Below are positions 8 through 4,613 of a stretch of 21,059 nt of DNA, in pieces. Position numbers and translations under genes: made by a program. The stretch is from a virus: the IMG/VR virus record IMGVR_UViG_3300007734_000454, positions 1-21,059 of that record, one strand, 5' to 3'. Under the pieces are notes generated by a model. That model saw nothing but the letters and a program-made list of their open reading frames with translations. It searched no databases and had not been told where the DNA came from. Numbering within the stretch: the first letter of the stretch is position 1; the number at the start of each line of letters is the position of its first letter.

Positions 8-38
8 GATGCTTCTCCAGGTGATTTTGATTTAGTTT

Positions 39-1891: not shown

Positions 1892-2635
1892 TTATAGTAG
1901 TCCGTGCCATGTTGTTGGCACGGGTTCGTTCGGGTTGAGTCGCTCAATCTCAGCCAGTGCTCGCTTGAGTCGGACAACCTTGTCGTGTGTGTCTTGCGTT
2001 GGACTAATCGCATGGTCTTGGTTTGCGTGTAGCAGTTCCTTAGCCGTGCGGTTGAGCAGTCGTTGCTTACGCTTGGCGTGTATGTCATCGGGAACCAGTC
2101 GCTCAAAGGGAATCTTGCGCCTGGCCTTGGCTGTGTATGGCACGTCATCGAACACAGTGTTGACCCTCATCTTGATATGCGTGGGTACAAAGTCTGTCCA
2201 ATGCAAGCCGTGATTGGGTAAGTTCTTTTCCTTGGCATAGGTGGACGGCGTGTAGTCGCCCCGATTCTTGAGCTTGGTGATTCGGTTGTACAACTCAGCC
2301 AGCACCAGCTCGTATGCCCTGAATGCAAGCACCCGCATGTCGTTGTCATCATCCGCCTTGTACTTGAGGGACGCTCGCACACTACGGCGCTCAGCCTGTA
2401 ATGGTTTTATCAAGTCCCCCCATAAAATGTTCTGCTGTGCTTCGTGTATGCGGTGTCGGCGTAGCGTTTCTTTTTGGCTCAGAATGATGTCGCGCATCTC
2501 GTTGACCACAAGTCGGGGCGTACCTTTCTTGAGCAGCCCCGCTAAATGGTTTGCAAGCTCGCGCCGTTTGAGCTTCATCAGCGTGGGGTATTGGATGCGC
2601 TCAGGCGCTGAGTCATCGTGGGTTTCTGGGTTCAT
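1892..2635 (-). CDS. Basic helical hypothetical protein, 247 aa
   Basis: The largest left-arm gene, not recognised. The start at 2635 (MNPETHDD...) is chosen over an upstream ATG at 2782 for two reasons. AGAGGTGCAAC stands at the right spacing, and a near-consensus extended -10 lies at 2664-2672, inside the longer frame. The protein is rich in Lys/Arg and mostly helical. It has a basic stretch at about 20-45 (MKLKRRELANHLAGLLKKG), a QKETLRRHRIHEAQQ helix, a central AFRAYELVLAELYNRITKLKNRG helix and a basic C-terminal region (KRKQRLLNRTAKELL). Nucleic-acid binding is plausible from composition alone. No enzyme motif is visible. Its ribosome site lacks the GGAGAAGC form of its neighbours. Confidence 0.8.
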   Translation of the reverse strand: MNPETHDDSAPERIQYPTLMKLKRRELANHLAGLLKKGTPRLVVNEMRDIILSQKETLRRHRIHEAQQNILWGDLIKPLQAERRSVRASLKYKADDDNDMRVLAFRAYELVLAELYNRITKLKNRGDYTPSTYAKEKNLPNHGLHWTDFVPTHIKMRVNTVFDDVPYTAKARRKIPFERLVPDDIHAKRKQRLLNRTAKELLHANQDHAISPTQDTHDKVVRLKRALAEIERLNPNEPVPTTWHGLL

Positions 2636-2663
2636 GTTGCACCTCTGAGTTGTGGAAGGGTTC

Positions 2664-2672
2664 ATTATATCA
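2664..2672 (-). promoter_or_regulatory. Extended -10 promoter, leftward
   Basis: The minus strand reads TGATATAAT, a perfect TATAAT hexamer with a TG extension, 28 nt upstream of the ATG at 2635. There is no good -35 hexamer, as expected for the extended -10 class. A hairpin terminator lies immediately upstream, so transcription of the 247-aa gene and those beyond it would start afresh here. Confidence 0.6.
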
Positions 2673-2688
2673 GGGGTAGTGATAAAAG

Positions 2689-2712
2689 CACGGAACTGAA
2701 TCCGTGTTTTTT
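2689..2712. terminator. Probable bidirectional terminator
   Basis: CACGGA-6-TCCGTG forms a 6-bp stem. On the plus strand it is followed by TTTTTT; on the minus strand by CTTTTAT. It could stop leftward transcription coming from the genes at 3030-4099 and antisense transcription from the left. The stem is short, so strength is uncertain. Confidence 0.55.
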
Positions 2713-3009
2713 GTAAGTAGTGTGGTATGGCGGACGGGCGTTGAGCCTTATGCTGTAAGGGTTTGTTCAATTTCTGTACCAACCATCTATGTTTTTAGGG
2801 TACTGCACGCCTCAAAGTAAAAGAAACTTTTTCTTTGCGATTTGGCGGCAGAGTGCACGCACATAAACACACCCCTCTATATATAAAGATATATAGAATA
2901 TAGATTAGTAGTACCGAATTTGTCCAAAAGCCCGTGTTCATTGGGCAAAACGCTGTCCGCCTGCATGGATAGTTGTGAAAATCACGGAACCGAAGATTTT
3001 CACCTGTTT
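2713..3009. other. Intergenic region with palindromes
   Basis: About 300 bp with no supported gene. It holds a perfect AT-rich palindrome, CTATATAT-AAAG-ATATATAG (2877-2896), inside a region of strong AT bias (2876-2912). It also holds an inverted repeat with 9-bp arms, GTGAAAATC-11-GATTTTCAC (2975-3003), whose interior contains CGG-AA-CCG. The latter ends 6 nt from GAGA copy C. The AT-rich palindrome could be a binding site or an easily melted element; no iterons or DnaA boxes were seen, so an origin is not claimed. Confidence 0.5.
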
Positions 3010-3026
3010 AGAGAGAAATTCTCTCT
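3010..3026. repeat. GAGA palindrome, copy C
   Basis: AGAGAGAAATTCTCTCT is a 17-bp palindrome centred on a single A. It begins 3 nt after the stop of the gene at 3030-3266. The outermost pair of the 19-bp consensus is lost. Confidence 0.8.
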
Positions 3027-3029
3027 GGG

Positions 3030-3266
3030 TTAGTACGGCAAGGGTTGTTGCACTGGTGCGCCTTGTGCCTGAACCCATGTGTTGCGTGCTTCAGGTGTAG
3101 TGAAGGCGAGGCTTTCACCGCCGATGATGCCTGCGAGATGGATGACATACTCACGCCATCTTTTGCTACTGCCTTTGCTTGGGTAGTAGTCTTGAACCAC
3201 GAGCAAGCCTTTGGGTGTTGTGACTTGGGTGACTGTGAAAAAGGCACGATACTTGTTGTTACGCAT
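3030..3266 (-). CDS. Hypothetical phage protein, 78 aa
   Basis: Not recognised. It is a basic protein with likely beta strands at the N-terminus (YRAFFTVTQVTTPKGLLVVQDYY), then a Lys/Arg/Ser-rich turn (PSKGSSKRWREYVIHL), and a Pro/Gln-rich C-terminus. The ATG at 3266 follows GTAAGGAGAAACATC. A nearby alternative reading frame on the same strand starts at 3247 but lacks a ribosome site. A 66-nt gap with two hairpins separates it from the upstream gene. GAGA copy C follows its stop almost at once. It is probably co-transcribed with 3333-3551. Confidence 0.7.
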   Translation of the reverse strand: MRNNKYRAFFTVTQVTTPKGLLVVQDYYPSKGSSKRWREYVIHLAGIIGGESLAFTTPEARNTWVQAQGAPVQQPLPY

Positions 3267-3640: not shown

Positions 3641-4099
3641 TTACTCAAAGGCGATAGAGTCACGCAGTTCAGCAATCAGGGCATCAAACTCTGCCTTGTT
3701 CATGCCAGACGCAATGACCTCGTTCAAGACAGCGTTAAACACTCTGCGTGGTGCAATGACTTTGACTTGACGACCGCTTGAATCAGGCAGTGTTTTCTTA
3801 GCCTTGATTTTCTTAATGTGATAGGCAAAGTCAGAGTAGGCGCGGTCAATGGCCTTGATGTGCTCACGCTTTGCAGTCTTGCCTTTGCCAGTGGCGATGA
3901 CATCCTCAGCGTTCTTGATGCCTTGCCCGATAAGATGGTTCAGCATCCAGCGAGCTTTCAAGTCCTTTTGTTGCTCAGGCGTAGCCTTTGCGTATGCGTC
4001 AGCAAGCGGCTTTGCAGACTCTTGCAACTGCTTGCCTACTTTACCGACAGACTTTGCGAACTCGTCGAATGACATGGTCGTGTTTGCTTTCAGTGACAT
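3641..4099 (-). CDS. Basic helical hypothetical protein, 152 aa
   Basis: Not recognised. The ATG at 4099 (MSLKANTTMSF...) is preferred to an in-frame start at 4162: AAGGAGAAGCACC precedes it, and the longer frame would run through GAGA copy E. The protein is lysine/alanine-rich and helical throughout (FAKSVGKVGKQLQESAKPLADAYAKA; DFAYHIKKIKAKK). Its acidic C-terminal helix is KAEFDALIAELRDSIAFE. There are no cysteines or membrane segments. Composition would suit a nucleoid or DNA-associated protein, but no domain is recognised. It is the first gene of the left arm, behind a candidate extended -10 promoter, so it is probably abundant early in transcription. Confidence 0.8.
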   Translation of the reverse strand: MSLKANTTMSFDEFAKSVGKVGKQLQESAKPLADAYAKATPEQQKDLKARWMLNHLIGQGIKNAEDVIATGKGKTAKREHIKAIDRAYSDFAYHIKKIKAKKTLPDSSGRQVKVIAPRRVFNAVLNEVIASGMNKAEFDALIAELRDSIAFE

Positions 4100-4116
4100 G
4101 GTGCTTCTCCTTGTGT

Positions 4117-4182: not shown

Positions 4183-4435
4183 CGAGGGGTAAGCAGATGG
4201 TTCGTATAGCCCTCTCATAGCGTGAATATCCGAGAACTTTAGACCCCACCCTAGGGGCATCCCCCATATATGTGTGAACGGGTGGCACTTAGCTTGAACA
4301 CTATTCCCCACCAATTCTCAGCACTTCTGTAATACTTAATACTCCAGACTACCCCCCTACAAAGATAATCACCCCCACCATAAAAATTTCTAAAAAATTT
4401 GGAAGAACCCTATGTCAAACGCTAGACATACAGCC
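4183..4435. other. Non-coding strand-switch region, left half
   Basis: About 250 bp without a supported gene between the two arms. It is marked by short C runs, an AAATTT-5-AAATTT repeat (4385-4400) and a perfect inverted repeat TATGTC-8-GACATA (4411-4430). The latter contains a leftward TTGACA (4418-4413), but the hexamer 17 nt on (TTTTAG) is a poor -10. I see no tRNA, origin iterons or attachment site. Confidence 0.5.
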
Positions 4436-4577
4436 ATAAAAAAATCCCCCGGCATTGCTGACGGGGGATTAAACAGTTGGAGCACAACTGAGGAGAAGCA
4501 TCTGAACAACAGTGGAGAGAAGATGGCCAAAGGCCATATTCAACAACAGGGCCAAGGCCCACGGTTGCGCAACTGCT
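4436..4577 (-). ncRNA. Candidate phage small RNA, about 142 nt
   Basis: A minus-strand unit with its own promoter (4585-4613) and terminator (4437-4470) but no convincing ORF. In order, the RNA contains GTTGCGCAAC, a GGGC-CTTG-GCCC hairpin (4549-4560), an ATGGCC-TTT-GGCCAT hairpin (4523-4537), a pyrimidine-rich linker, a CAGTTG-5-CAACTG hairpin (4474-4490) and the terminator hairpin. The linker reads ATCTTCTCTCC, then CTGTTGTT, then GATGCTTCTCCTCA. The last segment is complementary to GGAGAAGCATC before the gene at 1-7, to AGGAGAAGCA before 387-779, 961-1209 and 3641-4099, and to TGAGGAGAAG before 1444-1788. The leaders of the right-arm genes (for example AAGGAGT) match much less. The inference is a trans-acting RNA that blocks ribosome binding on left-arm mRNAs. 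The alternative is a plus-strand minigene using the same bases. Confidence 0.6.
4437..4470 (-). terminator. Strong intrinsic terminator, leftward
   Basis: On the minus strand AATCCCCCG-10-CGGGGGATT forms a 9-bp stem that runs into a tract of seven T. The plus strand reads TTAAAC after the stem, so the element works leftward. Since no leftward protein gene lies to its right, it most simply ends the small RNA. Confidence 0.8.
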
Positions 4578-4579
4578 GA
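4523..4579 (+). CDS. Possible 18-aa minigene (alternative to the RNA)
   Basis: A plus-strand ATG five bases after GTGGAG opens a short frame, MAKGHIQQQGQGPRLRNC. A second ribosome-site-like GAGGAGAAGC lies 31 nt upstream of the ATG. It is listed because the ribosome site is canonical. However, its ATG lies inside a perfect hairpin and no plus-strand promoter is evident upstream. I regard the minus-strand RNA reading as more likely. Confidence 0.15.
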   Translation: MAKGHIQQQGQGPRLRNC

Positions 4580-4592
4580 CAATTAGTATACA
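4565..4592 (+). promoter_or_regulatory. Candidate right-arm promoter
   Basis: TTGCGC and TATACA are separated by 16 nt, and transcription would begin near 4599, about 30 nt before the small terminase gene. The -35 is imperfect. The -10 shares GTATAC with the leftward promoter at 4585-4613, so both could not be occupied at once. Confidence 0.4.
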
Positions 4593-4613
4593 CTCCGCGC
4601 ATCGCAGGTACAA
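4585..4613 (-). promoter_or_regulatory. Small-RNA promoter, leftward sigma70 type
   Basis: The minus strand reads TTGTAC (4613-4608), exactly 17 nt, then TATACT (4590-4585). Transcription would start near 4577, giving an RNA that ends at the T tract around 4437. This is the best -35/-10 pair found in the window. Confidence 0.6.

Follow-up and report, generated by a model that had tools for sequence, protein, structure and literature searches.

What is encoded in the short region that separates the two oppositely oriented gene arms of the viral contig IMGVR_UViG_3300007734_000454, and what might it do to the genes on either side? The whole contig of 21,059 bp, in which a search for end repeats found none, is referred to here as the window. 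Its right arm (TerS, TerL, portal and major head protein) runs rightward and its left arm leftward; a genome-length relative carries replication enzymes (DNA polymerase, helicase, primase and exonuclease) in the left arm, which also encodes numerous small proteins. A first-pass annotation had placed between the arms a self-contained phage small RNA with its own promoter and terminator, and had given it no function. On comparative evidence we identify the unit as a conserved small RNA (sRNA). We further consider it quite likely, in the absence of expression data, that this is a phage-encoded trans-acting antisense sRNA, which acts as a collective translational damper on the left-arm (early) genes.

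All elements of the unit lie on the minus strand. The promoter, comprising TTGTAC (-35, positions 4608-4613) and TATACT (-10, 4585-4590) with a spacer of 17 nt, and the GC-rich terminator hairpin followed by seven T were confirmed where they had been reported (4613-4608, 4590-4585 and 4470-4438, respectively). With the 5' end inferred about 7 nt past the -10 element, the RNA spans 4438-4578 (~140 nt) and is matched by our covariance model R1 with 55.6 bits (E 1e-9). Its closing stem P1, whose 5' strand AGCA (4574-4577) pairs with UGCU at 4500-4497, encloses two hairpins, GGGCCTTGGCCC (4549-4560) and ATGGCCTTTGGCCAT (4523-4537). These are followed by the targeting motif UGCUUCUCCU (4491-4500), whose UCUCCU is unpaired in the predicted fold, by the hairpin P2 (CAGUUG-UGCUC-CAACUG, 4474-4490), and by the intrinsic terminator P3 (AATCCCCCG-N10-CGGGGGATT plus seven T/U, 4438-4470). 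The fold is more stable than those of shuffled sequences, with z -3.35 for 154 nt against dinucleotide shuffles and z -4.15 for 4578-4438. A generic promoter and terminator scan of the window detected neither the promoter nor the terminator of the sRNA, because TTGTAC agrees with the consensus at only 3 of 6 positions and the terminator loop is 10 nt long, and the case for both elements therefore rests on their conservation.

That conservation was assessed with the TerS protein as the query in three scans of IMG/VR, which yielded 166 loci with a readable region upstream of TerS, reduced to 99 distinct sequences. The unit is kept in nearly all 166 loci, on the strand opposite to the TerS gene and in a constant order: a -35 element TTGnnn, exactly 17 nt, a -10 element, then a 5' stem in two parts, the linker UUCUCC(U) left unpaired, another hairpin and the intrinsic terminator. 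About 93 of the 99 distinct sequences have TTGnnn 17 nt before TA[TCA]AC[TC], with the terminator following; the -10 variants are TACACT (51), TATACT (42), TACACC/TATACC (4) and TAAACT (2). The CU-rich motif, in the form CUUCUCC, CUUUCUCC or a close variant, is present in 96 of 99. An independent scan with a DNA pattern retrieved 64 stretches, and all 59 new ones adjoin the same TerS gene, while the covariance model detects one copy apiece in six genome-length contigs (E<=2e-5) and one in the window. Own promoter and intrinsic terminator, which are expected of a trans-acting sRNA, are thus present, by sequence conservation only. One clade (L131, L133, L137, L142, L143, L145 and L146) has lost the unit, and the covariance model finds no sRNA in G009, which belongs to it. 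In these phages the promoter has decayed (GTGTAA, TACACC) and neither motif nor terminator is left, which makes them natural loss mutants for comparison.

No cultured relative was identified: none of 50,697 phage records matches the window in DNA or in TerS. The nearest TerL proteins, at 46-52% identity, are those of DSL-LC04 and of pelagiphages of the HTVC023P type, and the covariance model found no copy of the sRNA in the parts of DSL-LC04, HTVC023P and MinM2 that were retrieved. Neither the sRNA pattern nor TerS turned up in the collection of bacterial and archaeal species genomes that was searched, with no prophage or host carrier. The term "switch region" that had been applied to this locus, if taken in the sense of lysogeny, has not been substantiated, as bacterial genomes yielded no relative.

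The compensatory changes that the first-pass annotation had suggested looking for were found in the relatives, and together with the conserved unit they support its proposal of a self-contained phage small RNA. The consensus consists of P1 (an outer stem closed by UUGC and an inner stem GGCAA/UUGCC), the free UUCUCC(U), P2 and the terminator P3. In 36 sequences of the 3' half the covariation score is 0.297, compared with 0.156±0.016 after shuffling (0 of 500 reaching it) and at most 0.163 when slid; changes on both sides are seen at all six pairs of P2 and at seven of the nine pairs counted in the terminator. Over the whole consensus 12 of 21 pairs exhibit such changes, and the inner P1 stem covaries only slightly (2 of 5 pairs). 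Kinship among the sequences inflates such counts; the compensatory changes support the hairpins. In 94 RNAs the core of the linker has a mean unpaired probability of 0.78, compared with 0.40 over entire transcripts. The claim of three perfect hairpins needs amendment: GGGCCTTGGCCC, ATGGCCTTTGGCCAT and CAGTTG-TGCTC-CAACTG are all present in the window, but the first two, which had been counted as core, are variable inserts, the second being absent from L001 and both from L006. The conserved core comprises instead the 5' stem, the CU linker, the hairpin 4490-4474 and the terminator. Palindromes of the type GGCC-N-GGCC (TTGGCCTTTGGCCAA and variants, some with paired changes) come and go inside P1, at 4523-4560 in the window; such inserts occur in 28 of 99 sRNAs, with two in the window, whose transcript is ~140 nt long, ~90 nt being typical of the relatives.

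What the first-pass annotation had missed is that the CU linker, read as its reverse complement, corresponds to the Shine-Dalgarno (SD) region of the leftward (replication) genes. Outside the locus itself the window contains five complementary sites of at least 10 nt, at 4111, 1802, 1221, 791 and 18, and all of them are ribosome-binding sites (RBSs) of left-arm genes on the minus strand. These predicted targets are AGGAGAAGCA before left-arm gene 1 (4102-4111, 10 nt complementary; ATG at 4099, 152 aa), TGAGGAGAAG before the CDS 1444-1788 (1793-1802), AGGAGAAGCA again before the CDS 961-1209 (1212-1221; cofold energy -17.7 kcal/mol) and before the CDS 387-779 (782-791; -15.2 kcal/mol), and the 11-nt GGAGAAGCATC before a gene that runs off the window (8-18). 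In the window, gene starts of the left arm are predicted to pair more strongly (-10.4 kcal/mol) than those of the right arm (-4.8 kcal/mol; p 8e-4), a few starts being uncertain. Duplex and cofold energies are relative guides only, and a genome-wide ranking by duplex energy with loose gene calls proved too noisy, so exact complements were counted instead.

Across 91 loci, matches of at least 12 nt to the CU motif number 85 in the left arms (428 kb), 84 of them at RBSs, and four in the right arms (487 kb), with none on the opposite strands of either arm; the longest extend to 19 nt, from the SD sequence through the AUG. After removal of duplicate contexts 73 remain on the left and three on the right, and seeds with shuffled flanks that retain the SD core give only 0-3 long matches. 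The same preference is visible in the RBSs: among 853 distinct left-arm sites the commonest 5-mers after GGAG are AAAGC (116) and AAGCA (45), which are the complements of the two types of sRNA motif, and both fall outside the top 15 in 344 right-arm sites. The unit hence has an accessible, conserved seed complementary to several unlinked mRNAs, as a trans-acting sRNA should, and it does not fit the pattern of a cis-antisense RNA of the c4, sar or OOP type, since its predicted targets are separate RBSs spread across the left arm.

At the level of sequence, then, the conserved unit, its structure, its exposed motif and the arm-specific complementarity can be regarded as shown, while transcription, the early nature of the left arm, binding, repression, timing and help from the host Hfq (Hfq/ProQ binding) are inferred. 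In the mechanism that we propose, a sigma-70-type promoter pointing away from the TerS gene would produce an RNA of 90-140 nt with P1, P2 and the terminator P3, in which UUCUCC(U) would be exposed between P1 and P2, and the P1-closing UUGC could open to permit a longer contact. At the RBSs of numerous left-arm genes the exposed stretch would pair with GGAGAA(A)GCA(A)-(AUG), covering the SD sequence and often the start codon; it would thus compete with ribosomes and lower left-arm translation. Synthesis of early proteins would fall as the sRNA accumulates, and the right-arm (packaging and structural) mRNAs, devoid of the complementary word, would escape. Early control would then probably be exerted by RNA rather than by a protein repressor, and the sRNA would be an analogue of the T4 protein RegA.

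Some degree of pairing with SD sequences is common to all CU-rich RNAs, and the main targets could lie among the mRNAs of the host. It has to be considered, though we regard it as unlikely, that the anti-SD linker serves to dampen translation or metabolism in the host, and that it matches the early RBSs of the phage merely because these are strong SD sequences. The sRNA resembles, below threshold (26.3 bits, E ~0.001), the Rfam family RF02278 of Burkholderia double-hairpin RNAs, whose unpaired CU-rich stretches are predicted to lie over host RBSs and one of which, ncS27, slows growth when overexpressed (PMC5688073). Moreover, similar RBS words survive in some members of the clade without the sRNA (5/17 in L143, 3/25 in G009, 0/12 in L133), and the words are therefore independent of the sRNA. 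Against an exclusive role in the host, the complementarity exceeds the SD sequence, as the SD-preserving shuffles and the scarcity of right-arm matches indicate, and the long matches run through the AUG of phage genes.

The trans-acting reading has a limit of its own. Motif type and RBS word are associated (Fisher 3e-7, uncorrected for relatedness, with L088, L125 and L130 as exceptions). In phages with CUUCUCC, the type found in the window, there are ~51 long matches to the other form of the motif and only ~5-12 to their own; pairing thus fails to follow the targets of the individual phage, and in this type it would have to involve ~10 nt or require a one-base bulge. We had considered co-evolution of the motif with the RBSs; it is unsupported by the swap between motif forms and by the loss clade.

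Less probable still is that the sRNA is the antisense counterpart of a late terminase leader and regulates the late transcript or is sponged by it. Only 15 nt lie between the start of the sRNA promoter and the TerS start codon, which leaves no room for a TerS promoter between them, and any rightward transcript that reaches TerS from further left would cross the sRNA gene, making the two RNAs fully complementary. However, no conserved rightward promoter has been identified, and cis-antisense pairing needs neither a conserved unpaired CU linker nor matches to distant genes. The two readings are not mutually exclusive: it may be inferred that the TerS transcript could sponge the trans-acting sRNA late in infection.

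There is very little to recommend the view that the conserved element is a plus-strand leader peptide or an RBS directed toward TerS (GAGGAGAAGCAAATG...), with the hairpins incidental. In some subclades the plus-strand complement of the motif is followed by an ATG (e.g. MPCGNCP... or MSIFADWP...), but 47 of 96 sequences lack a start codon there, the frames of different clades show no relationship and range from 4 to more than 100 codons, and the promoter and the T-run of the terminator are both on the minus strand. The T/C changes in L094, L103 and L114 preserve minus-strand pairing (UGCC-GCAA-GGCA or UGUC-GCAA-GACA) and alter the peptide. A plus-strand frame of 18 or more codons was thus rejected as a conserved feature, and the outcome that would have refuted the RNA, a frame kept while the hairpins decay, is not observed. 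Its position upstream of the left arm, on the same strand, also suggests that the unit might be a leader or attenuator which controls the left-arm operon by regulated read-through at the terminator. This is just as hard to sustain, since a TTGACA and a palindromic operator belonging to the left arm itself lie past the terminator, variable tRNA-like inserts separate terminator and operator in some relatives, and no conserved anti-terminator alternative was found.

The palindromic operator-like site, TGTCAAACGCTAGACA (4413-4428), is near-perfect (TGTCTAACGTTAGACA) in many relatives and overlaps the minus-strand TTGACA (4418-4413), downstream of the sRNA terminator. Together they are the probable start of the left-arm operon, and the palindrome is a probable operator of a phage regulator that has not been identified. 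Between it and left-arm gene 1 extends a conserved non-coding block (~4240-4400; GTATTAAGTATTAC...GGTGGGGAATAGTGTTC with G-rich runs on the minus strand), which is possibly a replication origin or a promoter region. Elements of ~75-150 nt occupy the same site between terminator and operator in L002, L005, L009, L016, L023, L053, L059, L062, L066, L107 and L119. Their ends are conserved (GTTGGTGG...CCACCAAC), whereas their interiors differ greatly; they look like degenerate or unusual tRNAs, of which ARAGORN recognized only a tRNA-Met in L023, besides an odd tRNA (anticodon caag) in L099. In L126 an array of six tRNAs (Pro, Tyr, Asn, Thr, Ser, Ser; 2615-3222) adjoins the sRNA locus, and the junction therefore accepts tRNA genes in these phages.

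In a widespread group of uncultured phages, a single conserved RNA matches many start sites of the replication arm and hardly any structural genes. If the trans-acting reading is correct, it would be a simple RNA switch for a whole class of phage genes, would form a new Rfam family and would offer a natural template for controlling the translation of several genes at once. A testable question is raised as well, namely why the early genes of these phages share an extended ribosome-binding word. The literature that we searched, mostly without subscription papers, describes no RNA that does this for the early arm of a phage.

The absence of a named family, as claimed initially, is borne out by a scan of the window against Rfam, in which no family reached its gathering score. 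The closest in kind is RF02278 (Betaproteobacteria toxic small RNA, including ncS03, ncS05, ncS27 and ncS62 of Burkholderia cenocepacia), likewise short and independently transcribed, and the 3' half of the phage sRNA reproduces its order of a CU-rich unpaired 5' stretch, a hairpin and a terminator hairpin. Its gathering score of 50 bits is so clearly missed that the phage sRNA was not filed there. RF02278 RNAs are encoded in betaproteobacterial chromosomes, and the phage sRNA is not found in the species genomes; it has the extra stem P1, adjoins the terminase gene, occurs as a single copy per phage and also complements the phage-specific extension GCAA(AUG). The anti-hemB RNA (RF02837; 20.5 to 22.3 bits against 49.5) shares CUUCUCCUC and a terminator with it, but is chromosomal and carries the motif in a hairpin loop, while the suhB/mmgR RNA (RF00519; 28.6 bits for the best relative against 41) has a similar CU-rich linker between hairpins and a terminator. 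Phage antisense RNAs known to date mostly have one phage gene, or host genes, as their targets. The c4 RNA of P1/P7, the sar RNA of P22 and the OOP RNA of lambda likewise block the translation or stability of phage mRNAs, c4 by binding around the ant RBS, yet each has a single target (PMC12197685) and they belong to temperate phages, whereas here many left-arm RBSs fit one RNA and there is no sign of lysogeny. In function the closest parallel is the RegA protein of T4, which occupies the translation initiation regions of ~30 mRNAs, early and middle ones included, and blocks initiation on them (PMC3014915), and is likewise one regulator for many start sites, but acts as a protein and not as a base-pairing RNA. 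We suggest tentatively, with the balance tipped slightly against it, that these phages may have replaced a RegA-type protein with one sRNA that mimics the ribosomal anti-SD sequence, tailored to SD-GCAA-AUG, the sequence at which the phage's early genes are initiated, which would collectively turn off the early regulon and spare the late genes.
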